Assembly (NCBI RefSeq): GCF_026210795.1
Contig: NC_089452.1
Span: 1,240,001-1,304,000 of the forward strand
Length of the DNA: 64,000 nucleotides
Source: Rhizophagus irregularis
Taxonomy: Eukaryota; Glomeromycota; Glomeromycetes; Glomerales; Glomeraceae
Direction: 5' to 3'
This document shows positions 15,493-59,567 of the stretch, piece by piece (position 1 is the first letter of the stretch; every line of letters begins with the position of its first letter). Position numbers and translations under genes: made by a program. The notes under the pieces are model-generated. The model had not been told where the DNA came from, did not search any database, and saw only the letters and a list, made by a program, of their open reading frames with translations.

Positions 15493-15502
15493 GATATTCT
15501 TT

Positions 15503-16739: not shown

Positions 16740-16742
16740 TCT

Positions 16743-17037: not shown

Positions 17038-17040
17038 TCT

Positions 17041-18053: not shown

Positions 18054-18136
18054 ACATATTTTCTTTTCAAATTTTTCTTCCTTACTTTCATTTGGCGTCT
18101 TTATCGTCTCTCTCTCTTTTAGAAAGCCAAGACTAG

Positions 18137-22494: not shown

Positions 22495-22672
22495 TTTAAT
22501 AAAATTTTATTTACGGTTTATTTTATTTTGATCACTTTTTAATTTCTACTTTTAAGACGATAACCTTTATTTATATTTTATCCTTTAATATTTACATGTT
22601 TCCTCATTTTACATGATTTTCAAACATATCTTTTGATAAATTATCCTTATTCTGTCATTTTACTCCATTATT

Positions 22673-23380: not shown

Positions 23381-23399
23381 TTTAATTTCTTGTTATAAT

Positions 23400-25301: not shown

Positions 25302-26026
25302 TGTCACCGGCACCTGCCACGTACCGATAGACGAAATCTTAACATTTATAAATATATATGTATCCGTGCTTGGTTTAGATTTTATCATTTTAATTTATTC
25401 AAAATTTCAAACTTCGATAATTTCCCTTAGTGTTATCATAACATTATTAATTATCATTATATTTTCCTAAGTTCCCAATATTATTTTCAATTTCAAGTCG
25501 AAACTCCTTCCGCTTCACTTAAGTCCAAAATCTCGATCTTAAATAACTTTTCTTATCTTGAATATCTTTTCTTATCTCTTGATCATCTATCTAAAACTTA
25601 ACATTCCCCAACAATTTACTTGTTATTCCATTATACATTCCCCAACTTAACATTTTCATTATAAATCTGTATCCATGAATTATTTCCCCAACAATTGATT
25701 TGTCTGATTCCCTTTTAATTTATCATTTATAATTTTCCCATTCCATCAATTAAACTATCAAAGTCCTCCCAACGAAATAATAATCTATTTATGCTAGACT
25801 ACTAATAACTAATCTAATAATATAAATAATTATAAATAACTGAATTATAAATAAATATTATTATAAATAACTAACTATTGTACAACTATAACAATGTATT
25901 TCTAATTATTTCAGTTAAATATTCTTTTGTCGGTTAAATGTTTATCCATATTCCATTCAGTATTTCATTCAGCCTTCGGATAATTATTCCTCTGTTCACG
26001 TGATTATTTCGATATCTAGGGTTACA
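25302..26026 (-). repeat. 5' LTR of element 1
   Basis: 725 bp, paired with 13551-14275. It begins TGTCACCGG on the plus strand and ends GGGTTACA. It supplies the promoter for minus-strand transcription. Confidence 0.93.
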
Positions 26027-26237
26027 CCGGTATCGCATGATCTTTATAATTAAAAATGGTTATAATAAATCATATCAGGCATTAAAATCGTATCAGACAT
26101 TAAAATCTTATATCAGGAATTAATCGCAATATTCAAATTACGTAGTACCAGATAAATCACTTATTCAGCACTTTAAGCCAAATAACAGGACCAGAAATAT
26201 ACATATAAGGGTCAGGTTTGCGAATTTTGAACTAAAA

Positions 26238-29163: not shown

Positions 29164-32100
29164 TTAATTTTCAATTATACATTCTAAACACTCAGAATCT
29201 TCTTTAGCTAAAATTTCAGTAAGACTGCGACTTGTATAATATGCTTGTGAATGATATTGTATATCAGAAGTACTTGCTTGTTCTTGCCATAAAGCTTTGT
29301 TTGCTTCTACAAATTCAAACATATCATTTTTTAATTGATTATCAATATCAAATACTTCATATTTATAATTTCCATCCCTGTTTATCTCATAATGTTTATC
29401 AATACATCTAATCCATTCAGATATAATATTTTCAAGCATTATTATGGTTGGTCTATTTGAAGGATCTGAATCCCAACATTTTTTCATTAAATCTATATAA
29501 CATTTTGGAGTATTTTTCATAATTTCAGGACGCTTTCCTTCTTTACAAATACTCAAGCTGAGTTGAAGATCATGTGCTTTATTTTCATATGGTGGAACTC
29601 CCGATGTAAATTCCCACATTATCATTGAAAAGCTATAAATATCACTTGCTGGAGTATAGGGTTTTTTTCTTAATATCTCAGGTGCCATATAAGGTAAAAC
29701 TCCATAAATTTCATTAACTTTATTATAGGAATCTTCTAAATCACTTATAGGTTTGCATAATCCTAAATCAATAATAAATAACTCATTGTAATTATCTGAT
29801 ATTAAAATATTACCATCATGAAAATCACCATGAGCCAAATTTGATTCATGTATTACTTTAAGTCCTAATATAATTTTTTTCAATAATTGTAATTTTTCTT
29901 GCCACTTAAGCTTAATTATATCAGATAAACATTTTCTCAAGCTTCCTTTTTTCGCATAACTCATTATTATTATATAATTTAAATTTTCTGGATTTTGGGT
30001 AATTCCAAAAAATTGAATAAATTTTGAAAATGATTTTTTCTGACAATTATAATGATATTTCCACTATATAAATAATAAAAAATTATTAAATTTTTGCAAA
30101 AGGAAATAAACAGCATACTATTAAATATAAATATTATACCTCATCCAGAAATTTACTATTCAAACTTGATGAATTATTAAGTGTTTTAAGAATGACCTCG
30201 TAACCTGTTTGCCTATTCCATTGTTGTTTGCTAAAATTCCAACTAAAAATGGGCCCATCTGACCAAGTAGCTTTATGAATTTCACTAAATCCTCCTTTAT
30301 CATAATAATTAATATTTGACAATTTGTTATAAGGTATCCACTCTAAAATTTCATAACTATTTTTAGCATTTAATTGTGCTTTTTGAATAAATTTATCAAT
30401 AAATTCATTTTTACTAGTCCACTTTAAAAAATCTTGTTGAAATCGGTTAGTATTACATTGTTGGCACCATTGGTAATCAGTACATAGTTGCCTACATTCA
30501 TTACACAATTCAGCCTCATTTTTAGGATTCACTTTGTTACTTTCTGCTACTTTTTGATGCCAATAAAAAGCCTTTTCAAAATTCTTTTCTGTTCCTTTTC
30601 CATTTTCATAGCACATGGCTAAATTATTCATTGCTTGAATATGTCCATTTTCTGCTGCTTTTTGATACCAATGAAAGGCTTTTTCTAAATTTTTTTCTGT
30701 TCCTTCTCCGTTTTTACAACATATGGCTAAATCAAACATTGCTTCTTTGACACCATTTTCTGCTGCTTTTTGATACCAATGAAAGGTTTTATCTAAATTC
30801 TTTTCTGTTCCTTCTCCATTTTTATAACATATGGCTAAATTAAACATTGCTACTTCATTTCCATTTTCTGCTGCTTTTTGATACCAATAAAAGGTTTTTT
30901 CTAAATTCTTTTCTATTCCTTCTCCATTACAATAACTAATGGCTAAATTAAACATTGCTTTTGCATCGCCATTTACTGCTGCCTTTTGATACCAATGAAA
31001 GGCTTTTTCTAAATTCTTTTCTGTCCCTTCTCCATTTTTATAACATATGGCTAAATTAAATATTGCTTCTTCATTACCATTTTCTGCTGCTTCTTGATAC
31101 CAATAAAAAGCTTTTTCTAAATTCCTTTCTGTTCCTTCTCCATTTTTATAAAATATGGCTAAATTAAACATTGCAATAGAGTAACCATCTTCTGCTGCTT
31201 TTTGATACCAATAAAAGGCTTTTTCTAAATTCTTTTTTGTACCTCTACCATTTTCATAACATATAGCTAAATTAAACATTGCTTCTTTAACATCCTTTAC
31301 TGCTGTTTTTTTATACCAATAAAAAGCTTGTTCTAAATTCTTTTCTATTCCTTCTCCAATATAATACATATTTGCTAAATTAAACATTGCAACAGTATAA
31401 CCATCTTCTGCAGCTTTTTGATACCAATAAAAGGCTTTTTCTAAATTCTTTTCTGTTCCTTTTCCATCCTTGTAACATATAGCTAAATTAAACATTGCAT
31501 TAGTATAACCATTTTCTGCTGCTTTTTGATACCAATAAAAGGCTTCTTCCAAATTCTCTTCAGTTCCTTCTCCGTTTTCATAATGTATAGCTAAATTAAA
31601 CATTGCTTCAATATGATCTACTTCTGCTGCCTTATGATACCAATAAAAGGCCTTTTCTAAATTCATTTTTGTACCTTTTCCATTTTTATGACATAAAGCT
31701 AAATTAAACATTGCTTCAATATGATCTATTTCTGCTACTTTTTGATACCAATAAAAAGCTTTTTCTAAATTCATTTTTGTGCCTTTTTCATTTTCATAAC
31801 ATATGGCTAAATTAAACATTGCTTCAATATGATCTATTTCTGCTGCCTTTTGATACCAATAAAAGGCTTTTTCTAAATTATAATTTGTACCTTTTCCATT
31901 TTCATAACATATGGCTAAATTAAACATTGCAATAGTGTAACCATTTTCTGCTGCTTTTTGATGCCAATAAAAGGCTTTTTCTATATTCTTATTTGTACCT
32001 TTTCCATTTTCATAACATATAGCTAAATTAAACATTGCTTCATTAACACCTTTTACTGCTATTTTTTTATACAAATAAAAGGCTTGTTCTAAATTTTTTT

Positions 32101-35100
32101 CTATCCCTTCTCCAATATAATACATATTTGCTAAATTAAACATTGCAACAGTGTAACCATTTTCTGCTGCTTTTTGATACCAATGAAAGGCTTTTTCTAA
32201 ATTCTTTTCTGTTCCTTTTCCATTTTTATAACATATGGCTAAATTAAACATTGCTTCATTAACACCTTTTACTGCTGTTTTTTTATACAAATAAAAAGCT
32301 TTCTCTAAATTCTTTTCTATTCCTTCACCATTATAATAGCTATTAGCTAAATTAAACATTGCATTAATGTGATCTAATTCTGCTTCTTTTTGATACCAAT
32401 AAAAGGCTTTTTCTAAATTCGTTTCTGTTCCTTCGTCATTATAATAGCAACTAGCAAAATTAAACATTGTGTTAGTGTGATCTTTTTCTGCTGCTTTTTG
32501 ATACCAATAAAAAGCTTTTTCTAAATTCTTTATTGTTCCCTCTCCAATATAATATTTATTGGCTAAACTAAACATTGAAATAATGTGATCTTTTTCTGCT
32601 GCTTTTTGATTCCAATAAAAAGCTTTTACCAAATTCTTTTCTATTCCCTCTCCATTATAATAGCAATTAGACAAATTAAACATTGCATTAATGTGATCAT
32701 TTTCTGCTGCTTTTTTATACCAATAAAAGGCTTTTTCTAAATTCTTTTTTGCACCTTTTCCATTTTCATAACATAAAGCTAAATTAAACACTGCATTAGT
32801 ATAATCATTTTCCGCTGCTTTTTGATACCAATAAAAAGCTTTTTCTAAATTCTTTTTTGTACCTTTTCCATTTTCATAACATATGGCTAAACTAAACATT
32901 GCACCTTTAACATCTTTTACTGCTGTTTTTTTATACCAATAAAAGGCTTGTTCTAAATTCTTTTCTATTCCTTCTCCACTATAATACATATTTGCTAAAT
33001 TAAACATTGCAACAATATAACCATCTTCTGCTGCTTTTTGATACCAATAAAAGGATTTTTCTGAATTCTTCTCTGTTCCTTCTCCATTTTTATAGCATAT
33101 GGCTAAATTAAACATTGCTTCATTAACACCTTTTACTGCTGTTTTTTTATACAAATAAAAGGCTTTTTCTAAATTCTTTTCTATTCCTTCTCCATTATAA
33201 TAGTTATTGGCTAAATTAAACATTATTTTAATGTGATCTAATTCTGCTTCTTTTTGATACCAATAAAAGGCCTTTTCTAAATTCTTTTCTGTTTCTTCTC
33301 CAATATAATACATATTTGCTAAATTAGATACTACATTAGTGTAACCATTTTCTGCTGCTTTTTGATACCAATGAAAGGCTTTTTCTAGATTCTTCTCTGT
33401 TCCTTCTCCATTATAATAGCTATTAGCTAAATTAAACATTGCATTAATGTAATCTTTTTCTGCTGCTTTTTGATACCAATAAAAGGCTTTTTCTAAATTC
33501 TTTATTGTTCCTTTTCCGATGTAATATTTATTGGCTAAACAAAACATTGAAATAATGTGATCTTTTTCTGCTGCTTTTTGATTCCAATGAAAAGCTTTTA
33601 CTAAATTCTTTTCCGTTTCTATTCCAATTTCATAACATGTGGCTAAAATAAGCATTGCTTCTTTAACACCATGTTCTGCTGCTTTTTGATACCAATAAAA
33701 GGATTCTTTTAGATTCTCTTCTGTCCCTTTTCCATTTTCATAATGTATAGCTAAATTAAACATTGCTTCTTTAACACCATTTTCCGCTGCTTTTTGATAC
33801 CAATAAAAGGCTTTTTCTAAATTCTTTTCTATTCCTTCTCCATTTTCATAATGTATAGCTAGATTAAACATTGCTTTAATATGATCTTTTTCTGCTGCCT
33901 TTTGACACCAATGAAAGGCTTTTTCTAAATTCTTTTTTGTTCCTACTCCATTTTCATAATAATGTATAGCTAAATTAAACATTGCTTTAATGTGATATTG
34001 TTCTGCTGCCATTTGATGCCAATAAAAGGCTTTTTCTAAATTCTTTTCTATTCCTTTTCCATCTTTGTAACATATAGCCAAATTAAACATTGCATTAATG
34101 TTACCATTTTCTGCTGCTTTTTGATACCAATAAAAGACTTTTTCTAAATTACTTTCTGTTCCTTTTCCATCTTCATAATATATTGCTAAATTAAACATTG
34201 CATTAGTGTAACCATTTTCTGCTGCTTTTTGATACCAATAAAAGGCTTTTTCTAAATTTTTTTCTGTTCCTTTTCCATCCTCATAACATATGGCTAAATT
34301 AAACATTGCATTATTGTAACCATTTTCTGCTGCTTTTTGGTACCAATAAAAGGCTTTTTCTAAGTTCTTTTCTATTACTTCCCCATTTTCATAATGTAAG
34401 GCTAAATTATACATTGCTTCTTTAACACCATTTTCCGCTGATTTTTGATACCAATAAAAGGCTCTTTTTAAATTCCTTTCTGTTCCTTTTCCACCTTCAT
34501 GACATATAGCTAAATTAAACATTGCAATAGTATAACCATTTTCTGCTGCTTTTTGATAACAATGAAATGCTTTTTTTGAACTTATTGCAATTTCTGTTCT
34601 TTGATTCCAATAAAAGTAATTTTCTAAATTCTTATCTGTTCCCTTTTCATTTTCATAGTATATGGCTAAATTAAATATTGCATCAGTATGACCATTTTCT
34701 TCTGCTTTTTGATACCAATAAAAGGCTTTTTCTAGATTTTTTTCTGTTCCTTTTCCATTTTCATAACATATGGCTAAATTAAGCATTGCAATAGTGTAAC
34801 CATTTTCTGCTGCTTTTTGATACCATTGAAAGGCTTTTTCTAAATTCTGTTCTGCTCCCTTTCCATTTTTATAGCATATAGCTAAATTAAACATTGCAGC
34901 AGTGTAACCATTTCTTGCTGCTTTTTGATACCAATAAAAAGTTTTTTTCGAACTTCTTGCATTTTTAGCTTTTTGATACCAATATAGGGCTTTTTCTAAA
35001 TTCCTTTCTATTCCCTTTTCATTTTCATAACATATGGCTAAATTAGACATTGCATCAGTGTAACTATTTTCTGCTGTTTTTTGATACCAATAAAAGGCTT

Positions 35101-35950
35101 TTTCTAAATTCTTTTCTATTACTTCTCCAGTTTCATAATGTATAGCTAAATTAAACATTGCTTCTTTAACACCATTTTCCGCTGCTTTCTGATGCCAATA
35201 AAAGGCTTTTTCTAAATTCTTTTCTATTACTTCTCCATTTTCATAATATATGGCTAAATTGAACATTGCTTCTTTAACACCTCTTTCCGATGCTTTTTGA
35301 TACCAATAAAAGGCATTTTCTAAGTTCTTTTCTATTACTTTTCCACTTTCATAATATATAGCTAAATTAGACATTGCTTTAATATGCTCTTTTTCTGCTG
35401 CCTTTTGATACCAATAAAAGGCTTTTTCTAAATTCTTTTCTGCCCCTTTTCCATTTTCATAACATATGGCTAAATTAAACATTGCATCTGTGTAACCATT
35501 TTCTGCTGCTTTTCGATACCAATAAAAAGCTTTTTCTAAATTCTTTTCTGTTCCATCTACATTTTCATAAAATATGTTAAAATTATTCATTGCTATATCA
35601 ACACCACTTTCTGCTGCTTTTTGATACCAATAAAAAGCTTTTTCTAAATTCCTTTCTGTTCCTTTTCCATTTTTATAACATATGGCTAAATTACACATTG
35701 CAATAGTGTAACCATCTTCTGCTTTTTTTTGATACCAATGAAAGGCTTTTTCTAAATTCTTTTCTGTTCCTTCTCCATTACAATAGCTATTGGCTAAATT
35801 AAACATTGCTACTTTATTGCCATTTTCTGCTAATTTTTCAATACATTCCTTACACCATGATTCTTTAGTAAAAGGCTTATTGTAACATGAACAATTTTTG
35901 GTGTATACAGTGTCGGTATTTTTATTTGAATTGCTAAATTTGGTTTCCAT
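29164..35950 (-). CDS. Giant Sel1-repeat / TKL-type protein kinase (two exons, 2236 aa)
   Basis: Exon 1 is 35950-30140 and exon 2 is 30063-29164; the 76-bp intron 30064-30139 (GTATAA...TAG) joins them in phase 0, reading FLDE|WKYHYNC. The protein starts METKFSNSNK, then a cysteine-rich CxxC leader (residues 15-40) and about 48 Sel1-like repeats of 36 residues (EKAFYWYQKAAENG...AMFNLAICYENGKGTEKN). A CNEC...WCQQC motif follows, then a kinase domain of about 270 residues. The Gly-loop is KGGFSEIHKA, the ATP-binding Lys lies in VILKTLNN, the catalytic loop is HGDFHDGN (no Arg before Asp), DLG replaces DFG, and APEIL is kept. Sel1 solenoids usually bind partner proteins, so this is probably a scaffolded cytosolic signalling kinase. 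Two Sel1 units are irregular (NARSSKK, AISSKK insertions). No lesion found. Confidence 0.88.
30064..30139 (-). other. Intron in intact Sel1-kinase gene
   Basis: Donor GTATAA directly after GATGAG; acceptor TATATAG before TGGAAATATC. Its length (76 bp), phase and flanks match the 75-bp intron of the broken paralogue. Confidence 0.85.
30545..35835 (-). repeat. Coding minisatellite: ~48 tandem 108-bp Sel1 units
   Basis: The same 36-codon unit recurs through about 5.3 kb with no frame break. The paralogue at 7.1-9.0 kb has about 18 units. Copy number therefore changes by whole units, as expected from unequal exchange. Confidence 0.85.
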
Positions 35951-36115
35951 TGGTTATTTTAGAAATTTATTTTACTGAAAAAATTTATCATTTTTTCAGA
36001 CGAATTTTTTTTAGACAATTTATATTTTATCATGAATGAGTTATTAAAAAGGAATAATTTAATCAAAAGTAGAAGTCACAATAAAAAAAAATAAATTTTT
36101 TCGGGCCGTATTATT

Positions 36116-46911: not shown

Positions 46912-47878
46912 TTAACTTTTCATCTGTAACGAAATATGAATTAAGTTTGTAAAATAAAAATAAAATAATACTTAAATGATATACATCGAAATTTATTTAT
47001 TGTCTGAAGCGCTAACAAAGGACTTTACAATACGTATCTATTATAATACCTGTGTATAATTTAAACTAATTAAATTTTTATTAAATTCTTTATTTAATAA
47101 TATAGTGAGTAAGTTATTAATTTGTATAATAATAATTTATTAGTTATATATAATTTGACTTTTAACTAACTGAATTTTTATTTTATAATATTGGAGGTAA
47201 GTTATTATTTTAATTCAATTATTACATATTTTATATGATATTTATATATAATTTAACTAAAATAAATTCTTTATTAATAAAATTATTTAATAATAGAACG
47301 TAATTATTTTATTCTATTACTAATATATTTCTTACATATTTACATATGATTTAAACTAACTAAATTTTTATTTGAAAATTATTTGATAATTTATTATAGT
47401 TAGTAAAGTTGAGTTAATATTATTTATTCAATTAAACATTTATGCATAGTTTTTATTAAACTAATTAAATTCTTTATTTAAAAAAAATATGTATTTGTAA
47501 TATAGTTGTAAGTTATTACGTTTATAAATATCATATATAATTTACTTGATTCTTTATTATTGAAATGAGTGTTTTTAAATTAAAGTAGGGTTTCGACCCT
47601 ATAAGAAATATGTATACGGAAAGGATACGTTTTGTATACATTTTATGTACGTTTCTATAGTTTCCGTATACAAATTCCATATATTTAATAAGCAATTCAT
47701 TTTTGAACATTTTTTAAAAAAACTAATGTATACGGAAAAAATTAATCATACGGAATGTATACGGAATTTTTAAACTTAATATTTTTAGAAAATAATTTTA
47801 CAAAAATCTCGTATCATAACACGAGATCACGTGATTGTTTATTGTTTTGTTATGATACGTTTTTTGTTTTTAAAACAC
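46912..47878. other. Intergenic, diverged AT-rich tandem repeats
   Basis: Between 47055 and 47560 a motif like 'taatttaactaa..aatttttattt..ataat' restarts about every 90-110 bp, heavily diverged. Between 47605 and 47770 'gtatacggaa' and its inverse 'ttccgtatac' occur several times. No gene. Confidence 0.45.
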
Positions 47879-48528
47879 TGTAATGCCGTAGTATATCTAG
47901 TAAATTTATTAATTGTGAGGCGCAGTATTATATTTAGTCTTAGTGTATAAAATTTTAATTTATTTTTATTTTTATTTTAATTGGACCGAAAAGTCGTTAA
48001 ACTATTAGTCATGAGAATCAAGGATAATTGGACCGAGAAGTCGTTAAACTAATAATCACATGGATTAAGGTAGTTGGTCCGTGATGACCTTAAACTACTA
48101 GTCACGAGATTTAAGGATAAATGAAGATCCGAAAGATACTAAATTGAATGAAATCAAGTGACCTGAGGTGTCAAGTGATTAATTTGTTGATCACTACGTT
48201 AATATTATAAATCACAATTCAGGAGTTCATGATGATCAAATGGATACAAAATTAAGATAATGGAAATACTTTAAAACAATGGAAATACTTTAATAAATTA
48301 AATCCATGAATCGAGATTATGAATTTAGTTACACAAAAACAAACATAAAAGGGCGTGAAGATCACCTTTTGAGAAAAAATTAGACGAATTTTGTTATGAA
48401 TTATTTATTTTGTTATTTAATGTTATTAAACCAAGCATATTATTGTATTTATTTATATTATTAATAAAGAGTCATTTTGTTAATACCTGAGGTGGCAAAC
48501 ATAATTCTCTATGGGCTCAGGTGTTACA
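47879..48528 (+). repeat. 5' LTR of element 2
   Basis: 650 bp, TG...CA, apparently identical to 57343-57992. Promoter and polyadenylation signals should lie here; 'aataaagagtca' near 48468 is a candidate polyadenylation signal. Confidence 0.95.
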
Positions 48529-48530
48529 AG

Positions 48531-48543
48531 TGGTGCATGCTCC
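48531..48543 (+). other. Primer binding site of element 2 (tRNA-Gly)
   Basis: TGGTGCATGCTCC starts 2 nt after the LTR. Same 13 bases as element 1; complementary to a tRNA-Gly-like 3' end. Confidence 0.78.
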
Positions 48544-49598
48544 GAGAAAGGAAAAGTGATCATCCTCACATGATCACTACAGGTTATAAGTACAGGATCT
48601 CTGAGAAAAGAAAATGATCACCCCCACGTGATCATTAGAAGTTACGAATAAAGGATCGACGAAGTTAAGGAATTATAAAATTAAAAGTTCTAAGTCTTGG
48701 TTAAAAAAGAATTTAAGGTGTATTAACGTTAAATTTTAATAAAATAAAATCAAATATTTTAAAGGATACGTGAAAATAATGGTTACCAATGTAAAAGGTA
48801 TTAATTTGGGTAAGTATGACCATAAATATATAAAGAGATAATGTTCAAAATTAAATTTTTGATCTAACTTGACCACCGGCTGATAAGTCAATGAAAAATT
48901 ATTATTGCAATAATTTTCATACATATGAACCAAATATGTATGGTAGTAATTGATTATTAAGGGAAATGCGAGGCTAATCAAGTTAGAAGGGGTTTTAATA
49001 GAAAATTGTAAATAAGTTCCATGAATTAAGGATTAAAAATAATTTTTATAAATAATTGAGGTTAAGTTAAGGATAAAAAGTGTACCCAAAAACCGACACT
49101 ATAAATACGATGGTAGGGTAATTCTGTGTGAACTCAATTGAGGTTTTCTGTGTGATCAATTGAGAATAATTCTGTGTGAACTCAATTGAGGTTTTCTGTG
49201 TGATCAATTGAGAATAGTTCTGTGTGAGCTTTTTCTGTGTGAACTCAATTGAGGTATTCTGTGTGATCAATTGAGAATAGTTCTGTGTGAACTTCCAAAA
49301 ACAATTCTGTGTGAGGGTACCCAAGAAAAATCATGATTAACGTTAACAAAAATTAAAATAATGTTTGCTGGACAAATATGAGAAAATTACAGGAAAGAGA
49401 TAAATCAAATATGGAATCACATTCCAACTTTAGGTTGGGAATTTCAAGGAAAATGTAAATTTATTTGTACAAACCTGTAAACTACCATACTCAGTAATGA
49501 ACAAATGAGGTAAAGGCAAGCCCAGTATAGGTCAAATAAAATATAAAAGAAGGATAAAAAGTAAAAGACGCGAAAATTTTTAGAGAATTTTATTAAAA
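48544..49598 (+). other. Leader of element 2 with tandem repeats
   Basis: About 1 kb without a gene. At 49116-49316 'ttctgtgtga' occurs nine times, alternating with 'actcaattgagg' and 'tcaattgagaata', giving units of about 50-60 bp. The palindromic TCAATTGA core could form structure in the RNA. The extra ORF of element 1 is absent. Confidence 0.65.
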
Positions 49599-52500
49599 AT
49601 GGAATGGTACCATGTTTGGAACGCTGAATATATAAACCATAAACAAGAACATGACCTAGGAGTGATAGAACCAGAGGAATGTTTAGCATGTGAAATATGT
49701 AATCCAATAGAAAGAGAAGTATCAGCAGCATTCAAGAAATTTTGGGATGCTTTATTTAAATTTGAGGATACAATACTAATGTACAATAATGTAACACATA
49801 AAGAATTATTGAATTTATTAAGTATGGACAATAGAGAAAGGGAGGACACAATACATAAAGGAAAATGTAGGAATATAGTAGATAGAATAATTGAATCAAT
49901 AAGGTACAGACAACAACCGAAAATGAAGGAAAAAGGATTGAGAATAATAATTGTAGTAATTGTAAGGGATTGTATTGAAGGAAACTTAGAAAATGAAGTA
50001 TTTGATCGATTAATTGGATGCCCAGAAATAATGGAACATGGATATATTTTAGAAGATTGGGACGTTGAAAATAGATTTCAAAAATTTTGGGAATGGTATA
50101 ACACAATATTGGAAAATGATACGAAAGTAAAGCATGTAGGACCAGGTGCAATGGTAGAATTTAGAAAATTGTTATACATGGAAGAAAGAATAGCTGAATT
50201 AGGAGGATATGAGATGTTTGCCTTAATACAAAGCATTGAACACGAAGAACCTGAGTTATCAATTGAGGAATATGTCCAGAGGTTGGGTAAATATAAACAA
50301 AAGACAATACAAAGATTTATTGACACCAAACAATTTACAAGGGAACCCGAGGACCCAGAAAGTGATAGCCCTGAAAGTTATGAATTAGAGGACAGTGATG
50401 GTAGTATACATTATGAAGCAAAAATAGAGGATGATATCGAATGGACAGTGAAATTATTAAAAAGAAAAATTGAAGAAATGGGTGGAAGGTTTACTGATAA
50501 AGATATACAAAGAATGTGGGACCTAAGGATAAGGATAGAATTGATATTAACAGAGGACTTTTTAGGTACATTTTCCGAATTAATGAGACTAAGTGATGAA
50601 AAATTAAAAGATGAAATAAATGAATGGTTAACAAAAGAAACATTAATATGTGGAAATTGTAGAAATAGAAAGTTACCTGATATGATAGCAGACATTGGAC
50701 AATGTAAAAATTGTGAACAAAAAGAATTATTAGAATTAAAGGATGACTTAGAAAAATTAGGATACGAATTAAATGTGTCAGAAATAGAAAGAATGAGAAA
50801 ATTCAGGATAAGCAATAGTATAATATTAACAACGGAATTTATGGAAAAATATTCCCAGGAAATTGATATGAATGACAAAGAATTAAGGACAAAATTATAT
50901 GAATGGATAAATGAAAATACCACATTTTGTGATGAATGTGGAATAAGATGGATGAACAATAAATTTAACGAAGGAAAAACCAAGTGTAGGGATTGTGAGA
51001 ATGATGAAAATGAAATTGATATCAGGGTCAAAAGATTAAAACAAATATGTGATGATAATAAAATAGAAATAACTGATGGAGAGTTATTAAGATTAATCAG
51101 TATGGGATATACTGATGGAGAAATATTGGATCAAGAATTTATTGAAATATTCCAAGGAAATAAAAATGATTTGGAGAAAAATTTAAAACGGATATTGGAT
51201 AAATTTCTAAAACAACAAGCTGGAATTGAGGATAGTGAAAGCAGTGGAAATGAATCTGATAATGAAAAATCTGATGGATCTGAAAAAGAATCAGATGGAT
51301 CTGGAAAAGACGGAGAAATTTTAAATCCAAATGATACCGATAACAATGAAAATTTTGAAGAACCTTATGAAGAAAACATTATAAATAGACCTGGTTTTGA
51401 CTCAAGTGAAAGTTCAGAATCAAACTCTGAGGATAAAAGTGAAATATCTGATTATAATATAGAAAATTTATTTGAAACACCTTTAACACCACCGATACCA
51501 CCAATTCTACCAATAGTACCAATAATTATGGGAGCAACAAGAGCTGAAGTAAGGGAAGATTTTAGAGCGGCTTTACTAGCAGCAACGGGACATGATATAG
51601 GAGGTAATTGGGCTGGATTAGTCGCAGCCAACCCATTAGCAAATGCAATTGAGGATGCAGGAAATGTAGCTGGAGGAATAATTAGTATGCCACAATTTTA
51701 TGGAAGGGAAGAAGAAGACATAAACGATTGGGTAAGACAATTTGAAACAGCATTTACTGCCATAGGAAAAGCAGCAGGAGTAAATGGAGCTAGACAAGCA
51801 GCAATGGCAGCTACCTGTTTGAAAGGTGCGGCAGCACAATGGTATAATGAAAAGAAGGAAGCAAACAATGGTCATTTGGTAAATTGGCAAGATAACGATA
51901 ATGACAATGATTTAAAACATAGGATTAAACAAAGATTTACCAGAGAGGATGTTAGAAAAAGGAAAATGTTAGAATTAAGGAAAATAACACAAGGAGTAAA
52001 TGAAAATGTTGAAGCATATACGACAAGGTTCAGACAAATATTAAGGATAGCAACTAGGGGCCATGCATTAGATGATGAACTACAAGTAGACAATTATATT
52101 GAAGGGTTAACGCCAGTATTGGGGTACCAAGTCAGGAGACAAAACCCAGCAAATTTAAATGATGCAGTAAATACAGCAAGAAGAGAAGAGGAAGCTACTA
52201 ATGAATTAATGAGAAAAACACTTAACATACCAATTAATACCCAAAGAAAAGGAATCGATATACAAGATGACAAGCCAAAGAATATATTTGAAAAACCATT
52301 GGAGAAAAATTATGAGGATGACCTTGCCGACATGTTTAAAAAATTAGAGGTAAAACTAGTAAATCAACTTGGAGGGCAAAAGAGACCACCAAACAATAAT
52401 AATAGACAAGGACCACCACCTCGAGCATGTTATAATTGTAAACAACCAGGACATTATGCAAATGAATGTAGGGTAAATAATGGTCAAAGAAACTATGGAA

Positions 52501-53186
52501 GACCAAATAATCAAAATTATAATAGAAGATCAAATAACTATAATGGAAGACCAAATAATTATAACAGACCACCAAACCACCAAAACAATAATCGAGGATT
52601 CAATGTAGTGGAATATGATAATTATAATGACCAATATGATCAATATGATTATGATAGTCAGGATTATCAGGATAATTATGATCAAGGATATAGTTATGAC
52701 GACCCGTATTATCAAGATAATGATGTAACATTTAACCATGTTGATCAGGATTTTTATATTGGTGAAAGACAAACAAGGAGTAATATAAAAAATAGGTCAA
52801 GTGATCGAGATATAGATATGGAAATTGATCGAGAACAAACACGCAGAAGAAATGATAAATATGCAAGCCAAGAGGAAAGGGCAGCAGCATTACCAAAAAG
52901 AGGATTCACTGATGAAAGTCTGAGGAAAGCACAAGAAGCAAGGAGGAATAATAATACATGTGGAAATTGTGGACGAAGAGGTCACTATGCAAAACAATGT
53001 AAAAATGAACGTGTTGAAGGTATTCATAGGACAAGCGCATTTCAAAGAAATATACCAAAATATAACGTATTAGAGGATATGAAAAGTACCAGAGCAAATG
53101 CAACTTTTTCACAAATTATAGATATGAGCCCAGAACAAAGAAAAATATATTATGATGGTATGAGAAGGTATCCACAAACGGATTGA
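49599..53186 (+). CDS. Gag polyprotein, very long (element 2)
   Basis: 1195 residues, several times the usual Ty3/gypsy Gag. N-terminal ~480 residues: helical, with CxxC pairs (CLACEICNP; CGNCRNRK...CKNCE; CDECGIRW...CRDCE) that look like zinc ribbons. Then an acidic Ser/Glu-rich linker (~540-640) and a capsid-like retrotransposon-gag region (MPQFYGREEEDINDWVRQFE, AAAQWYNEKKE, RFTREDVRKRKM). After an Asn/Tyr-rich low-complexity stretch there are two CCHC knuckles (CYNCKQPGHYANEC; CGNCGRRGHYAKQC) for RNA binding. It ends with TGA followed by CTA, with the protease in the same frame beyond. Start ATG conserved in element 1. Confidence 0.93.
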   Translation: MEWYHVWNAEYINHKQEHDLGVIEPEECLACEICNPIEREVSAAFKKFWDALFKFEDTILMYNNVTHKELLNLLSMDNREREDTIHKGKCRNIVDRIIESIRYRQQPKMKEKGLRIIIVVIVRDCIEGNLENEVFDRLIGCPEIMEHGYILEDWDVENRFQKFWEWYNTILENDTKVKHVGPGAMVEFRKLLYMEERIAELGGYEMFALIQSIEHEEPELSIEEYVQRLGKYKQKTIQRFIDTKQFTREPEDPESDSPESYELEDSDGSIHYEAKIEDDIEWTVKLLKRKIEEMGGRFTDKDIQRMWDLRIRIELILTEDFLGTFSELMRLSDEKLKDEINEWLTKETLICGNCRNRKLPDMIADIGQCKNCEQKELLELKDDLEKLGYELNVSEIERMRKFRISNSIILTTEFMEKYSQEIDMNDKELRTKLYEWINENTTFCDECGIRWMNNKFNEGKTKCRDCENDENEIDIRVKRLKQICDDNKIEITDGELLRLISMGYTDGEILDQEFIEIFQGNKNDLEKNLKRILDKFLKQQAGIEDSESSGNESDNEKSDGSEKESDGSGKDGEILNPNDTDNNENFEEPYEENIINRPGFDSSESSESNSEDKSEISDYNIENLFETPLTPPIPPILPIVPIIMGATRAEVREDFRAALLAATGHDIGGNWAGLVAANPLANAIEDAGNVAGGIISMPQFYGREEEDINDWVRQFETAFTAIGKAAGVNGARQAAMAATCLKGAAAQWYNEKKEANNGHLVNWQDNDNDNDLKHRIKQRFTREDVRKRKMLELRKITQGVNENVEAYTTRFRQILRIATRGHALDDELQVDNYIEGLTPVLGYQVRRQNPANLNDAVNTARREEEATNELMRKTLNIPINTQRKGIDIQDDKPKNIFEKPLEKNYEDDLADMFKKLEVKLVNQLGGQKRPPNNNNRQGPPPRACYNCKQPGHYANECRVNNGQRNYGRPNNQNYNRRSNNYNGRPNNYNRPPNHQNNNRGFNVVEYDNYNDQYDQYDYDSQDYQDNYDQGYSYDDPYYQDNDVTFNHVDQDFYIGERQTRSNIKNRSSDRDIDMEIDREQTRRRNDKYASQEERAAALPKRGFTDESLRKAQEARRNNNTCGNCGRRGHYAKQCKNERVEGIHRTSAFQRNIPKYNVLEDMKSTRANATFSQIIDMSPEQRKIYYDGMRRYPQTD

Positions 53187-53189
53187 CTA
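53184..53189 (+). promoter_or_regulatory. Leaky stop UGA-CUA between gag and protease
   Basis: TGA CTA ends gag, and the same frame continues open through protease. UGA followed by CUA is an established high-readthrough context, used for example to make peroxisomal enzyme isoforms in fungi. Element 1 has the same six bases at the same place (18748-18743, minus). Confidence 0.7.
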
Positions 53190-53726
53190 CAAGAATCAAT
53201 GAACAACATTGAGGCAGAACACTTAACTGCATTAAGGGGTAAATTAATAATAAACCAAGAATTAAAGGACGTAATGTTTGATACAGGAGCAGCAGTAAAT
53301 GTAATAACTAGTCAGATAATGGATGAAATGGACCTAAAAATTGAGGAACCAAGTACAGTAAGATGTGTGATGATAAATGAGGATAAATTAGCATCTAGGG
53401 GTACCACGACAATATACATACAATTTGGGGATAAGGAAATACCCATTAAGGTTGAAGTAATTGATTCAGGGAAAAACGAAATTGTGTTAGGAAATGGAGT
53501 ATTAGATATGTTCAAAGCAAATATAGATTACACAGATAAAACAATAATAATTAGAATGAATGATGAAACTATGGATATACCAGTAAAATACACACAAAGG
53601 ACCATTAAAGGGTTTGAAGAAACATTTGATGAAGAGGAAATATTAGAAGAATTATACCAGGATGAATTGTATAACATATATGAAGATGACCATGAAGGTC
53701 AGGAAGATGAAAATTTTAAAGTATAA
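53187..53726 (+). CDS. Aspartic protease (element 2)
   Basis: Open in the gag frame from CTA; the internal ATG at 53199 is a possible independent start. The active site is VMFDTGAAVNV, with an ILGNG-like 'IVLGNGVLDMF' near the end of the fold, then an acidic tail. It cleaves Gag-Pol precursors. It ends with TAA at 53724. The RT frame (-1 relative) opens at 53720, a 7-nt overlap. Confidence 0.88.
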   Translation, partial: LQESMNNIEAEHLTALRGKLIINQELKDVMFDTGAAVNVITSQIMDEMDLKIEEPSTVRCVMINEDKLASRGTTTIYIQFGDKEIPIKVEVIDSGKNEIVLGNGVLDMFKANIDYTDKTIIIRMNDETMDIPVKYTQRTIKGFEETFDEEEILEELYQDELYNIYEDDHEGQEDENFKV

Positions 53727-55201
53727 GTCTTGGTCAGAATGATACTGAAGAGACGATAAAGAAGCACAAAAGTGACCATGAAAAATTTACTGAAAAATTT
53801 AAAGTAGGGGACATAACCAATGAACAAAAAGGTAAATTAAAAGTATTAGTAGAAAAATATAAGGATATATTTGAGTATGATGGTGAAAAATATAATAGGA
53901 CAAACCTAGTAAAACATGAAATCAGATTAAAAGGGGGTACTGAACCAATAGCCCAAAAGAGGTACAAAGAAAATGATGAAAAAGGTAAATTCATCAGAAA
54001 AGAGGTTGACGAGATGTTAAAATTGGGAAAAATTAGAGAATCTAGAAGTCCATGGTCTTCACCAGTGACTTTAGCAGGGAAAAAGTCGGGAAATTATAGA
54101 TTTTGCATCGACTATAGAAAATTAAATAAAGTTACAATAACAGATGCATATCCATTACCAAGGATTGATGAACAATTAGAAAGGATAAGTTCAGGAAAAT
54201 GGTTTACCAGTCTAGATTTAGCATCAGGGTTTAATCAGATAGAAATGGCTGAGGAAGATATTGAGAAAACAGCATTCATATGCTCAGCAGGATTATATGA
54301 ATATAATGTCATGCCATTTGGGTTAACAAATGCGCCTGCAAGTTTTCAAAGGTTAATGGATAAAGTATTAAAGGAGTACCTAAATGAATTTGTAATAGTA
54401 TACATTGATGATATAATGATATATTCGGAAAATTTTGAAGACCACCTAAAACACATAAAGTTAGTGTTAGAAAAATTAAAGAAAGCCAGTTTAATACTAA
54501 AGTTAAAGAAATGTATATTTGGAAAAACAGAAATAGAATTTTTAGGACATGTAGTTGGTAAAAATGGATTAAAACCAAGTCCAGGAAAGGTTGAAAAGAT
54601 ACAAAAATTAACAGCACCTATAAATATAAAAGGTGTAAGGTCAATATTAGGGTTATGTACGTATTATAGAAAATTTATTAAAGATTTTTCAAAAATAGTA
54701 AAACCAATAACATCTTTATTGAGAAAAGATGAAAAGTTTGAATGGGGCATCAAACAACATGAAGCATTAGAAATATTAAAAAGGAAATTAATCGAAGAAC
54801 CGGTGTTAAGACAACCAGATTGGTTAAGGAAATTTATATTAATTACAGATGCTTCAGGAATAGGATTAGGGGCAGTGCTAGCTCAAAAAGATGAGAAAGG
54901 TCAAGAATATGTAATAGAATATGCCAGTAAAAGTTTAAACAGGACAGAACAAAGATGGCCAATAACCGAACAAGAATGTTATGCAATTGTATGGGGAATA
55001 CAACATTTCCATAAATACTTGATCAATAGAAAATTTGAGGTAGTGACAGACCATGCAGCTTTGAAAGGATTGATGACTGCAAAAGTACCAAAAGGAAAGA
55101 GATCAAGATGGGTCATGGAATTGGAACAGTATGATTTTGAAATAACCCATAGACCAGGAAAAGAAAATAAAAATGCAGATGCCTTATCAAGAATAATATA
55201 A
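53720..55201 (+). CDS. Reverse transcriptase-RNase H (element 2)
   Basis: The frame is open from 53720, but the first ATG is at 54014, inside the RT fingers, so the N-terminus must come from another mechanism (frameshift, non-AUG start or splicing). RT motifs: SPWSSPVTLAGKKSG, YRFCIDYRKLN, WFTSLDLASGFNQ, VYIDDIMIYS (catalytic YIDD), FLGHVVGKNG, ILGLCTYYRKFI. RNase H: ILITDASGIGLGAVLAQ, EQECYAIVWG, VTDHAALKGL, ending NADALSRII, a normal gypsy RNase H end. It makes cDNA and removes the RNA template. Confidence 0.93.
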   Translation, partial: SISLGQNDTEETIKKHKSDHEKFTEKFKVGDITNEQKGKLKVLVEKYKDIFEYDGEKYNRTNLVKHEIRLKGGTEPIAQKRYKENDEKGKFIRKEVDEMLKLGKIRESRSPWSSPVTLAGKKSGNYRFCIDYRKLNKVTITDAYPLPRIDEQLERISSGKWFTSLDLASGFNQIEMAEEDIEKTAFICSAGLYEYNVMPFGLTNAPASFQRLMDKVLKEYLNEFVIVYIDDIMIYSENFEDHLKHIKLVLEKLKKASLILKLKKCIFGKTEIEFLGHVVGKNGLKPSPGKVEKIQKLTAPINIKGVRSILGLCTYYRKFIKDFSKIVKPITSLLRKDEKFEWGIKQHEALEILKRKLIEEPVLRQPDWLRKFILITDASGIGLGAVLAQKDEKGQEYVIEYASKSLNRTEQRWPITEQECYAIVWGIQHFHKYLINRKFEVVTDHAALKGLMTAKVPKGKRSRWVMELEQYDFEITHRPGKENKNADALSRII

Positions 55202-55237
55202 ATAGATGGGTGAAAGAGTTACTTTTCAAAAATAAAA

Positions 55238-57019
55238 ATGGGACCTAAAATAATAATCATATGTGGAGTTGATGGTACTGGAAAAACATTCATTGTAAAT
55301 AAACTTATAAAAGAATTTGAAAAAGTAGGACAAAGTGTGAGGTTTAACACCTTTAAAAGGAGAAGGGAGGACAATGATAAGTATAAAATACCAAAGAAAG
55401 GTATAGAATGGGAATTCAGGAAGGAAGTTGTTGAACAAATCAACAGGAGAATGGAAGAACATGATAATGAGGATTGGTTAATATTGGATAAAAGTCCTTA
55501 TAGTGAGTACTTTTATCAACAGACACCATCATTTGATAGAGGATACATATCAAGATATGAGAACCACTTACTGGAAAAGGAAATATTTAGAAATAAAAGG
55601 ATAATTGATGAATCAATAGTGATATTTTTAGAAAATGAAAAATGTTGGGAAAATTACAAAGGTAGAGAATATTCGAAAAAGGATCAAGGACATAAAACAT
55701 CATACCCATTGTTAAATGAAGAAAGATATATAGAGATGGTGAAATCATTTAAAGAATGTCAAGATATTTACGAAGGAGAAAAATATGCTAATATTAAAAT
55801 ATCAAATAATGACACAGATTGGGAAAGAGTATACAATAAAATAATAGAATTAGATGGAGATAAACCACCAATAGAGGTTAAAAATGTTGAGATTAAGGAT
55901 AACATCAGAGTAACTGATGGTAAAAAGCATATTGAGAAAAACGGTAAAAACATCAGAATAATAGAAGACTTTGAAAAGATGGGAGCACTATATTTAGCTC
56001 ACAGTCATGAATTATCAGCACATATGGGAATCAAAAGTACTTATGATAATTTAAAAGATAAATATTATTGGGAAAATATGCTGAATGATGTTGAAAGATA
56101 TGTAAGGACATGTGATGAATGTCAAAGAAGAGGAAAACCACAAGGGAAAAATGAATTACACCCAATTAAAGTAGTAGAACCATGGTATCAAATCGGGATT
56201 GACTTTGTTGGACCATTGAACACAACAACAAATGGTAATAAATACATCATAGTAGCAATGGATTATTTTACAAAATGGCCAGAAGCCAAAGCAGTAAAAG
56301 AAGCAACTGCCAAAGAAGTATCAAAATTTATTTATGAAGACATCATTTGTAGACATGGATGTCCAATGAAAATATTGAGTGATAGAGGAAGTCATTTCAA
56401 TAATGAAATGATTAAGGAATTAATGGAAAAATTCAAAATTAAATGGAATTTTTCTACAAGTTATCATCCAGAGACAAACGGACTTGTTGAAAGATTCAAC
56501 CGAACATTAGGTCAAGCATTAGCAAAATTATCAACCAAAGATGATTGGGATCAAAGGATAGCACCCATATTATTTGCTTACCGAAATAAAAAGCATAGTT
56601 CAACAAGAATTCGACCATTTTATTTAACATACGGAAGAGATGTACGGACAATAATGGATGAAAATATCAAAGAAATTAACCTAAGTGATAGAATAGTTGG
56701 ATTATTAGAAGAACTACCAAAAATCCGACATGAAGCCAAAGAACAGATACTGAAATCTCAAACAAAACAAAAAGAGTATCATGACAGAAAAATAATTAAA
56801 GAACATACCTTTGGAATTGGAGATAAAATACTACTTTATGATAAAGCCAAAGCACAACAATTATCTGGAAAATTGGAATCAAAATGGTTGGGACCATTTT
56901 ACATTCATGAAATACTACCAAACGGAGCCTACAAAATTAAAGATATTAAGGGTGTAATCAAGAAAACACCTGTAAATGGAGAATTATTAAAGACTTACCA
57001 TACACCGATGAGTAAATGA
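55238..57019 (+). CDS. Thymidylate-kinase-like domain fused to integrase (element 2)
   Basis: 593 residues starting at an ATG 36 nt after the RNase H stop. Residues 1-205 are a complete P-loop kinase: IIIICGVDGTGKTF (Walker A, GVDGTGKT at 10-17), VRFNTFKRRRED (34-45), LILDKSPYSEYFYQ (81-94), a LID-like GREYSKKDQGHKTSY (142-156). This order fits thymidylate kinase (dTMP to dTDP). Residues ~245-593 are integrase: HHCC zinc domain (H257, H262, C292, C295), catalytic D322, D382 and E418 with DD35E spacing, C-terminal 'GDKILLYD' and 'WLGPFYI'. All kinase and integrase motifs are intact. Here the kinase travels with integrase, unlike element 1. Confidence 0.92.
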   Translation: MGPKIIIICGVDGTGKTFIVNKLIKEFEKVGQSVRFNTFKRRREDNDKYKIPKKGIEWEFRKEVVEQINRRMEEHDNEDWLILDKSPYSEYFYQQTPSFDRGYISRYENHLLEKEIFRNKRIIDESIVIFLENEKCWENYKGREYSKKDQGHKTSYPLLNEERYIEMVKSFKECQDIYEGEKYANIKISNNDTDWERVYNKIIELDGDKPPIEVKNVEIKDNIRVTDGKKHIEKNGKNIRIIEDFEKMGALYLAHSHELSAHMGIKSTYDNLKDKYYWENMLNDVERYVRTCDECQRRGKPQGKNELHPIKVVEPWYQIGIDFVGPLNTTTNGNKYIIVAMDYFTKWPEAKAVKEATAKEVSKFIYEDIICRHGCPMKILSDRGSHFNNEMIKELMEKFKIKWNFSTSYHPETNGLVERFNRTLGQALAKLSTKDDWDQRIAPILFAYRNKKHSSTRIRPFYLTYGRDVRTIMDENIKEINLSDRIVGLLEELPKIRHEAKEQILKSQTKQKEYHDRKIIKEHTFGIGDKILLYDKAKAQQLSGKLESKWLGPFYIHEILPNGAYKIKDIKGVIKKTPVNGELLKTYHTPMSK

Positions 57020-57342: not shown

Positions 57343-57992
57343 TGTAATGCCGTAGTATATCTAGTAAATTTATTAATTGTGAGGCGCAGTATTATATTTA
57401 GTCTTAGTGTATAAAATTTTAATTTATTTTTATTTTTATTTTAATTGGACCGAAAAGTCGTTAAACTATTAGTCATGAGAATCAAGGATAATTGGACCGA
57501 GAAGTCGTTAAACTAATAATCACATGGATTAAGGTAGTTGGTCCGTGATGACCTTAAACTACTAGTCACGAGATTTAAGGATAAATGAAGATCCGAAAGA
57601 TACTAAATTGAATGAAATCAAGTGACCTGAGGTGTCAAGTGATTAATTTGTTGATCACTACGTTAATATTATAAATCACAATTCAGGAGTTCATGATGAT
57701 CAAATGGATACAAAATTAAGATAATGGAAATACTTTAAAACAATGGAAATACTTTAATAAATTAAATCCATGAATCGAGATTATGAATTTAGTTACACAA
57801 AAACAAACATAAAAGGGCGTGAAGATCACCTTTTGAGAAAAAATTAGACGAATTTTGTTATGAATTATTTATTTTGTTATTTAATGTTATTAAACCAAGC
57901 ATATTATTGTATTTATTTATATTATTAATAAAGAGTCATTTTGTTAATACCTGAGGTGGCAAACATAATTCTCTATGGGCTCAGGTGTTACA
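57343..57992 (+). repeat. 3' LTR of element 2
   Basis: Apparently identical to the 5' LTR at 47879-48528. The element ends ...GTGTTACA, followed by the target repeat ACAC. Confidence 0.95.
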
Positions 57993-57995
57993 ACA

Positions 57996-58136
57996 CTAAA
58001 AGATTTGTTGGGTGCCGATCGTACTAAAATAGAAAAGCTTGATTTGAAATGTATTTATATAATCAGCAAATCAATACCAAAGATGGGGGATCAGCATCTT
58101 AAAATGGAAATCACTCAAAAACTAATCTTATGTTAA
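57996..58136 (+). CDS. Coding-like fragment beside element 2, unidentified
   Basis: A 46-codon open frame without ATG (KIEKLDLKCIYIISKSIPKM, then GDQHLKMEITQKLIL) begins right at the edge of element 2 and ends with TAA. Copy at 62480-62620 with one change in the visible start (LLGADRT against LLVADRT). It looks like an exon or a transposase scrap carried in the duplicated segment. Family unknown. Confidence 0.35.
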   Translation, partial: LKDLLGADRTKIEKLDLKCIYIISKSIPKMGDQHLKMEITQKLILC

Positions 58137-59138
58137 CGTTAAGTTAACGTTAACCTATCATGACATGTCAATCATTTCAAGTCATAACAATAACGTGACG
58201 CGCCACCCACCCACCTATAGGGTGATATTGCACTTATATAGAATGATCTTTCTTGCTTAAAAATTATGGGATAAAATTTTTAGCAAATCATGTGAAAACT
58301 GAATAATTTTTTTGTTAGCCAAAAATGATCAACAACCGGATGACAAATTTTAATATTATGTAAATAAACAATTTGTTTGTATTACTTATTTAAATATAGA
58401 TACATTTTTTTTTTATTTTGAACCAAAAAATAAACAATAATCAAATGGTAAATTTTCATTATCGTCGTCATTACATTATCGTTATAATTAAAGTTCCCTG
58501 CCGAAATTAGGGAGTTTCGGCATGTCAAAATTGTCAAAACTATTTTGACATGTCAAAATTGTCGAAACCTAAAAATATTACATTTCACGTAATAACTCGG
58601 CGTCCAATGATCATAGAAAGATGCACCATAGCTCGTTGGAATCGTCTCATAACGACGAGTCGAATGGTGGCTAAATCGTCTTTCTACGATCACTGGATGC
58701 CGAGATATTAAGCGAAACGTCAAAAATCGGCATTTTGTATTTTGCGATACTGCGCCATTTGACGTTTCACTTAATAACTCGGCATCCAATGATCGTAGAA
58801 AGATGCACCATAACTCGTTGGAATCGTCTCATAACGACGAGTCGAATGGTTGCTAAATCGTCTTTCTACGATCACTGGATGCCGAGATATTGAGCGAAAC
58901 GTCAAAAATCGGCATTTTGTATTTTGCGCTACTGCGCCGTTTAACGTTTCGTCTATTATCTCGGCATCCAATGATCGTAGAAAGATGATTTAACCACCAT
59001 TCGACTCGTCGTTATGAGACGATTCCAACGAGCTATGGTGCATCTTTCTACGATCATTGGATGCCGAGTTATTAAGTGAAACGTCAAATGGCGCAGTATC
59101 GCAAAATACAAAATGCTGATTTTTGACGTTTCGCTCAA
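57997..59138. repeat. Duplicated segment, copy A
   Basis: Near-identical to 62481 onward (for example 'gatttgttgg(g/t)tgccgatcgtactaaaatag'), including the coding-like fragment, the AT-rich body and the left part of the hAT-like element. Element 2 sits at the left edge of copy A; copy B keeps the undisrupted 'ttaaaacactaaaag' junction. Confidence 0.85.
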
Positions 59139-59567
59139 TATCTCGGCATCCAGTGATCGTAGAAAGACGATCTAACCACCATTCGACTTGTCGTTATGAG
59201 ACGATTCCAACGAGCTATGGTGCATCTTTCTACGATCATTGGATGCCGAGTTATTAAGTGAAACGTCAAATGGCGCAGTATCGCAAAATACAAAATGCTG
59301 ATTTTTGACGTTTCGCTCAATATCTCGGCATCCAGTGATCGTAGAAAGACGATCTAACCACCATTCGACTCGTCGTTATGAGACGATTCCAACGAGCTAT
59401 GGTGCATCTTTCTACGATCATTGGACGCCGAGTTATTACGTGAAACGTAATATTTTTAGGTTTCGACAATTTTGACATGTCGAAACTATTTCGGCATTTC
59501 GGCATTTCTACAGGTTTTAGTTTCGACATTTCGACAATAGCCTGTAGAGTTTTGGCAGGCAACTTTA
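58489..59567. mobile_element. hAT-like element, 1079 bp, filled with palindromic 182-bp satellite
   Basis: Ends TAAAGTTCCCTGCC and GGCAGGCAACTTTA; 8-bp target duplication GTTATAAT (58481-58488 and 59568-59575). The ends resemble those of the 244-bp MITE (TAAGGTTGCTTGCC). The interior consists of about two forward and three reverse copies of a 182-bp unit containing 'ggcatccaatgatcgtagaaa', so the whole element is a large inverted repeat. The 60-80 codon frames inside recur with the repeat and are not genes. Confidence 0.85.

Follow-up and report, generated by a model that had tools for sequence, protein, structure and literature searches.

A probable thymidylate-kinase-like domain flanked by RNase H and integrase in Ty3/gypsy elements of Rhizophagus irregularis

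The window analysed here, a 64,000-nucleotide stretch of the Rhizophagus irregularis genome (contig NC_089452.1, positions 1,240,001 to 1,304,000), holds two Ty3/gypsy-type long terminal repeat (LTR) elements, A on the plus strand and B on the minus strand. Each has a P-loop kinase of about 205-213 residues inserted between RNase H and integrase. We consider it fairly probable that a Ty3/gypsy lineage of the Glomeraceae captured a deoxynucleoside monophosphate (dNMP) kinase and kept it in Pol, where the enzyme would supply deoxythymidine triphosphate (dTTP) precursors for the synthesis of complementary DNA (cDNA). What was observed of the domain is where it lies in Pol, its copy number and spread, the selection on it, its predicted fold and the conservation of its motifs.

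A kinase domain within Pol

Both elements have paired LTRs and 4-bp target duplications (ACAC and CCGG), identified from flanking sequence, and their open reading frames (ORFs) follow the Pol order protease, reverse transcriptase (RT), RNase H, integrase, with gypsy-type domains. Pfam matches above cut-off in the window ORFs were Retrotrans_gag, protease, RVT_1, RT_RNaseH, Integrase_H2C2 and rve, and a Ty3_capsid match lay under its cut-off. Close copies of the window proteins carry R. irregularis DAOM 197198 names (such as P0057, at 98% along the full query).

The additional kinase that the original prediction placed between RNase H and integrase of both elements was confirmed by its motifs and by at least 151 genomic matches to the family A kinase query, a lower bound over the 146.7-Mb, 32-contig genome that all genome-wide counts cover. 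This number puts the observation far from chance; an internal stop is present in 15 of 150 listed matches. The span initially assigned to the kinase, 55238-57019, does contain it but also takes in the integrase. In element A, the 213-residue kinase domain itself occupies about 55238-55876 on the plus strand, and the integrase (zinc-binding domain and core) follows at 55877-57019 within the same ORF, which is separate from the preceding ones (55214-57019) and has its own first ATG at 55238. In element B, on the minus strand, the kinase (about 15512-16132) is fused after RNase H as the C-terminal end of an RNase H-kinase ORF (15503-16741) and stands before the integrase ORF (14305-15519). The kinase motifs read GVDGTGKT, RFNTFKRRR and LDKSPYSEYFYQ in element A and GVDGTGKS, RFNTFKRRR and LDKSPYCEYFYQ in element B. 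All of them are present in both copies, as had been claimed, but element B is partly broken elsewhere, its RT and RNase H frames being apart and its gag fragmented.

The two elements represent two ORF layouts, with the kinase joined to integrase (A type) or to RNase H (B type). In family A, the kinase ATG is kept in 30/30 copies, window copy included, and the ORF measures 593 codons in 20 of these 30. The spacer between the RNase H stop and the kinase ATG is 262-266 nt long in 23 of 26 measurable copies and 35-36 nt in the other three, among them the window copy. In the one spacer translated (L007), there is a small ORF that begins MEQVVRNTNHKIKD and runs past the start of the kinase; most of this spacer is missing from the window copy. 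In element B and most other loci read, the kinase ends the RNase H ORF and the integrase ORF is separate, apparently with its own ATG. In 19 of 20 diverged loci, the kinase is flanked by matches to RNase H and to integrase, the integrase match at L040 not being seen in the stretch examined, and several of these 20 loci have no gag, protease or RT match in the stretch examined.

With the family A RT as query, a kinase match lies at most 6 kb downstream of RT at 119 of 141 places. As expected from the original prediction, other members of the lineage carry the domain: the kinase accompanies 113 of the top 115 related RTs and is missing from two, and a separate sister lineage is without it; among the last 26 RT places, 20 have no kinase. 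In two kinase-less copies examined from RT to integrase, the integrase ORF follows RNase H with no kinase between them. In the RT tree, three kinase-less rows, the third classed so only from a missing downstream kinase match, are separated from 22 kinase-bearing rows by fully supported branches. At odds with this, the integrase tree joins the kinase-less copies to the L038 group (89/84). The trees hold only copies from this genome and, since the RT tree is unrooted, it fits one gain and one loss alike. A single capture is the simplest explanation of the kinase gene in the Glomeraceae lineage.

Selection on the kinase and its replacement between subfamilies

The kinase is under purifying selection. 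Pooled ratios of nonsynonymous to synonymous divergence (dN/dS, Nei-Gojobori) at dS 0.05-0.2 were 0.086 for the kinase, 0.090 for integrase, 0.050 for RT and 0.038 for RNase H, and more distant pairs gave 0.19-0.24 for the kinase. The selection suspected from conservation between the two window copies is borne out by this dN/dS check, where the kinase value lies near that of integrase and not near 1. The 52 sources yielded 52 kinase, 46 integrase, 48 RNase H and 43 RT rows after exclusion of matches shorter than about 80-85% of query length; pairs are non-independent, and window element A is counted twice (WA, L001). Within family A, kinase changes numbered 45 synonymous and 33 nonsynonymous with no stop, where random placement of the same changes would give 22.1, 52.8 and 3.1, respectively, and 0/500 simulations, in a test that ignores the tree, reached so few nonsynonymous changes. 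Constraint in this family is weaker on the kinase than on RT (ratio 0.307 versus 0.086). In element B type copies, the ORF ends with the kinase, so keeping a frame open cannot explain the selection.

In one subfamily, the kinase alone is swapped for that of another subfamily. Indeed, L036, L037 and L046 combine an RT of the L032 type with a kinase of the L038 group. At the DNA level, L036 is 97.8% identical to L032 in RT and 98.4% in RNase H, and its integrase is also L032-like (91.3%), whereas its kinase shares 89.1% identity with L038 and only 70.1% with L032. Approximately unbiased (AU) tests, on groups named after the trees were seen, reject single-history alternatives for the kinase (p 1e-72) and for RT (p 4e-15). 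That a kinase was replaced by a kinase, and kept, is what one would predict were the domain of benefit to the element.

Type of kinase and its proposed role

AlphaFold models of the A kinase (predicted local distance difference test, pLDDT, 87.5; predicted template modelling score, pTM, 0.84) and of the N-terminally extended B kinase (pLDDT 89.1, pTM 0.85) both match deoxynucleoside kinases (dNKs) and thymidylate kinases (TMPKs), the dNK fold and the TMPK fold being found alike. The two groups tie in structure-search Z scores within the best 50 rows (16.3-15.4 for A and 15.5-14.6 for B), and identity to solved TMPKs in these searches is about 11-19%. FtsY and other GTPases, which top the PDB sequence search, align mainly over the P-loop region, for no more than about 90 residues, and were set aside in favour of whole-domain fold matches. 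The proposed check against the PF02223 profile gave a divided answer: Pfam Thymidylate_kin was found in 24 of 30 family members, some relatives having precomputed PF02223, but the window proteins stay under the curated cut-off. For the window A protein, AAA_28 outranks Thymidylate_kin by E-value but stays under cut-off; for the isolated domain it scores 27.1 bits against a cut-off of 27. PHROG_761 'thymidylate kinase' matches 30/30 family members; since it also matches the fungus's own dNK gene, this match does not discriminate.

Sequence details lean to TMPK, and the domain is therefore called a predicted thymidylate-kinase-like nucleoside monophosphate (NMP) kinase. Its P-loop has the form GxDxxGK[ST], with an acidic residue (GVDGTGKT). 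This Asp12 is found in 52/52 genomic rows and in 93/100 database sequences covering the column, and it is followed by Gly in both window copies. Arg143, placed in the lid from sequence and model, is found in 52/52 genomic rows and 95/97 database sequences. According to PMC3169407, the P-loop Asp is unique to TMPKs among NMP kinases, and type II TMPKs have Gly after this Asp and a catalytic Arg in the lid; the Gly and a predicted lid Arg are both present here. An LDKSxYSxxxYQ segment is also conserved, and its ILDKSPYSEYFYQ aligns with ILDRSAYSGLAYQ of a phage TMPK. Collectively, the P-loop Asp, the lid Arg and this segment point to a type II thymidylate-kinase-like dNMP kinase, an identity that we infer from the sequence and the predicted fold.

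Several observations weigh against this identity or against the proposed role. The PF02223 cut-off is missed by the isolated window A domain (21.0 versus 27 bits) and by the window ORFs (17.7 and 16.1), and NCBIfam models of deoxythymidine monophosphate (dTMP) kinase match weakly, at E 0.0003 to 0.002, which is under their cut-off and behind what other models score. Foldseek ranks dNKs first (7.2e-7 versus 1.2e-5 for the best TMPK with A; 8.7e-6 versus 3.5e-5 with B), and hhalign gives 96.5% for the host dNK, 95.4% for a phage TMPK and 78% for the host TMPK. The DR pair after strand 3, which carries weight as a thymidylate kinase motif and occurs in the fungus's TMPK as well as in two phage enzymes, reads DK in 52/52 genomic rows, a conservative change. 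The host has its own TMPK gene. At dS <0.05, the dN/dS of the kinase (0.251) is looser than that of integrase (0.147). Finally, the kinase-less sister lineage persists with 48.8% A over RT to integrase; since it is richer in A than the kinase-bearing elements, AT-richness does not require a kinase.

The domain could instead be a dNK that turns deoxynucleosides into dNMPs, or an enzyme of wider range that catalyses both steps, which we regard as unlikely. The best Foldseek matches are deoxyadenosine kinases and deoxycytidine kinase (dCK), the highest hhalign value is that to the fungus's dNK gene, and LDKSPYSEYF resembles IMDRTPLSSYF of this gene. However, a G-x-I-G-x-G-K P-loop is typical of dNKs, and they use a Glu after strand 2 as base. 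In the retroelement domain, Asp takes the place of the P-loop Ile (EGGIGVGKSS in the host dNK, IEGNIGSGKTT in two solved dNKs), and the Glu is absent from the alignment: its position is taken by the FNTFKRRR cluster, nearly invariant over all rows, whose Lys and Arg residues would suit a phosphate-bearing substrate. PF01712 (dNK) does not appear in the window ORF Pfam lists or among the 25 of 49 families listed for the isolated domains; the fungus's own dNK gene scores 1.2e-31 with Pfam dNK.

Lost catalysis usually loosens catalytic residues, and the P-loop Lys (52/52 genomic rows), Gly15 (50/52), Asp84 and the lid Arg (52/52 each) are kept, which leaves little chance that the domain has retained the kinase fold but serves Pol without catalysis, as a structural part or by binding nucleic acid; in favour of this stand the invariant basic KRRR cluster, the Lys that replaces Arg in the DR pair and the title of PMC4261571, which claims such a role for a dUTPase-related gene in one lentivirus. 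It is improbable that the kinase acts on the 5'-OH ends of RNA or cDNA instead of free nucleotides. The domain does adjoin RNase H and integrase in Pol and has the conserved basic cluster, but no polynucleotide-kinase type stands above nucleotide or nucleoside kinases in the best 50 rows per structure search, where a weak or missing match excludes nothing. A passenger retained only because the frame must stay open is highly improbable: although the kinase-less sister indicates that a gypsy element can dispense with the domain, the kinase is kept where it ends its ORF in element B type loci and its loss would cost nothing downstream, its amino-acid selection near that on integrase contradicts such a status, and its replacement by another subfamily's kinase still left a kinase.

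Reverse transcription depends on the supply of deoxynucleoside triphosphates (dNTPs), a pool for which viruses compete with their hosts. For the preferred thymidylate-kinase-like dNMP kinase, the following role may be proposed. The kinase would be synthesised as one piece with RT-RNase H (B type) or with integrase (A type), and it would enter the particle together with RT; since it is encoded in Pol, it most likely travels with RT, and its packaging, cleavage and activity are predicted from this arrangement. There it could turn dTMP, or dNMPs generally, with ATP into deoxynucleoside diphosphates (dNDPs), which host nucleoside diphosphate kinase would complete to dNTPs. The added dNTPs might support the first cDNA strand where free dNTP pools may be low. 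The sense strand of the elements is 43-45% A, so that the first cDNA strand is 43-45% T; the kinase-less sister, richer still in A, speaks against the AT-richness rationale of the original prediction in its simple form. A need set by the state of the cell, for instance low dNTP pools where hyphae or spores do not divide, is an equally good fit. PMC2864245 quotes a comparable argument for viral dUTPases.

A bolder reading, which we hold tentatively and with some doubt, is that this is the first retroelement known to carry its own nucleotide kinase into the particle, as a private dNTP-synthesis step beside RT and as a cassette exchanged between subfamilies as a unit; such an exchange would imply a direct fitness benefit to the element. 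If this is true, the element solves dNTP supply itself, beyond the dUTPase cases. The domain is short and has more than 100 natural sequences, which leaves the idea open to ordinary enzymology, and the kinase-less sister lineage and the kinase-replacing subfamily provide natural controls in the same genome.

Element structure, relatives and known systems

Element A is bounded by a 650-bp TG...CA 5' LTR (47879-48528, plus strand; 651 bp to 48529 with one shared A) that is 100% identical to the 3' LTR (57343-57992, plus strand; 57993 with the shared A), and the ACAC duplication lies at 47875-47878 and 57993-57996. A putative primer-binding site, TGGTGCATGCTCCGAG, follows at 48531-48546 on the plus strand; TGGTGCATGCTCC, common to both elements, also adjoins the element B 5' LTR. 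The 12-base core word GGAGCATGCACC has 90 exact genomic matches and its reversed control 0, counts consistent with one putative primer-binding site common to these elements. TTCTGTGTGAACTCAATTGAGG-type tandem repeats occupy 49122-49318 of the leader. The Gag ORF (49584-53186, plus strand; 1200 codons, first ATG at 49599) comprises an N-terminal extension, a capsid domain and zinc knuckles and ends in TGA CTA. The extension (49599-51300; about 560 residues), in which CxxC motifs recur, had no Pfam match at E 0.01. On the same strand, the aspartic protease ORF (53187-53726) continues in the Gag frame after the single TGA stop, and the RT-RNase H ORF (53720-55201) ends in TAA at 55199-55201.

Gag and protease share one frame, with a single TGA and then CTA between them, in 17/17 loci (window 53184-53189 and 16 others). 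TGA followed by CTA is a leaky stop codon pattern, and the sequence suggests Gag-Pol readthrough rather than a frameshift. Subfamilies differ in how protease meets RT (window 53710-53726 and related loci): the two overlap briefly, stand in one frame or are parted by a gap. We considered a canonical -1 slippery heptamer at this junction and dropped it. The overlap, 4-10 nt where present, misfits X XXY YYZ in element A, and in several loci the two ORFs are instead gapped or in frame.

Element B, entirely on the minus strand, has 725-bp LTRs that are 99.3% identical (3' LTR 13551-14275, 5' LTR 25302-26026), with the CCGG duplication at 13547-13550 and 26027-26030. Its RT ORF (16974-18146) is broken in frame from RNase H, its protease ORF (18137-18745) lies in the Gag frame directly after the Gag stop, and its fragmented Gag covers 18746-22506. 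Upstream of Gag, an extra ORF of 239 residues (22673-23392, minus strand) had no Pfam match at E 0.01. Elsewhere, Gag-type sequence is fused to a kinase tail or to RNase H-kinase in P0114 (R. irregularis) and at locus L041, which appear to be internally deleted copies. Between the two elements, a single open frame of 1939 residues (30134-35953, minus strand) seems by eye to contain mostly Sel1-like repeats and then an apparent protein kinase start. Just behind element A, direct 182-nt repeats (58575-59430), by eye with inverted copies too, have the look of a hairpin-forming array.

Profile searches of 5.8 billion proteins gave 105 matches at E 0.01 and 393 at E 10. Among the best 120 of these 393, family members score at E about 1e-11 or better, with one short piece at 7e-5, and the next match stands at E 0.066. 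The named carriers among the matches listed comprise R. irregularis, R. clarus, R. diaphanus and Glomus cerebriforme, and a taxonomy look-up places the first and the last of these in the Glomeraceae. The remaining family matches are metagenome or other sequences, several with RT or RNase H domains (P0031, P0035, P0043, P0058). No clear relative that could be the donor appeared beyond the Glomeraceae and unassigned sequences in protein profile searches, viral contigs and phage records; the profile search chose its candidates by shared 5-residue words, so that distant donors may be missed. Among phages, the best match was to the tmk gene of a Vibrio phage, at E 2e-4 and 31% across 41% of the query, and only one of three queries found it. 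The host TMPK and dNK genes were rejected as donors, both being far from the domain. The stand-alone fungal dNK gene lies at 1985-2995 of L055 (G000:C28:1222000-1226500), and a second TMPK-like host gene (L051; G000:C24, near 3288271), with the P-loop GCEDTNTT without Lys, may be a dead paralogue.

UniRef names some relatives 'Thymidylate kinase-like domain' (P0049, P0059, P0068); the domain is thus already annotated, and no text was found that ties it to a retroelement. In the open-licence PMC text searched, Rhizophagus transposable element papers included, no description of a nucleotide kinase in an LTR element was found. The nearest precedent, as the original prediction held, is dUTPase, the nucleotide-metabolism enzyme known in gypsy elements according to PMC2864245 and PMC5408684. 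In these papers, elements of Postia placenta, the bdelloid Juno, Vesta and TelKA, and retroviruses likewise have a captured thymidine-nucleotide enzyme in Pol, and in vertebrate retroviruses dUTPase can stand between RT and integrase (PMC5408684). However, dUTPase is an unrelated enzyme that removes dUTP, whereas the domain described here is a P-loop kinase; moreover, the gypsy dUTPases in these accounts are located at Pol ends or between protease and RT, and not, like the kinase, between RNase H and integrase.

With type II TMPKs, including the PHROG_761 phage enzymes, the retroelement domain has in common the fold, the P-loop Asp, the lid Arg and D-[RK]-S-x-Y-S...YQ, but it differs from them in DK for DR, in the FNTFKRRR cluster and in being part of a polyprotein. 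With dNKs (dCK, deoxyguanosine kinase, deoxyadenosine kinase) it shares the fold, at scores equal to or above those of TMPKs, but it has neither the dNK P-loop pattern nor the aligned Glu. Other enzymes captured by LTR elements, namely AlkB in orchids and the DEDDy nuclease and GDSL esterase (ORF3) of bdelloids, resemble the present case as rare stable gains; according to PMC9289625 and PMC5408684, these are separate extra ORFs, whereas the kinase of the Glomeraceae elements is placed between RNase H and integrase.
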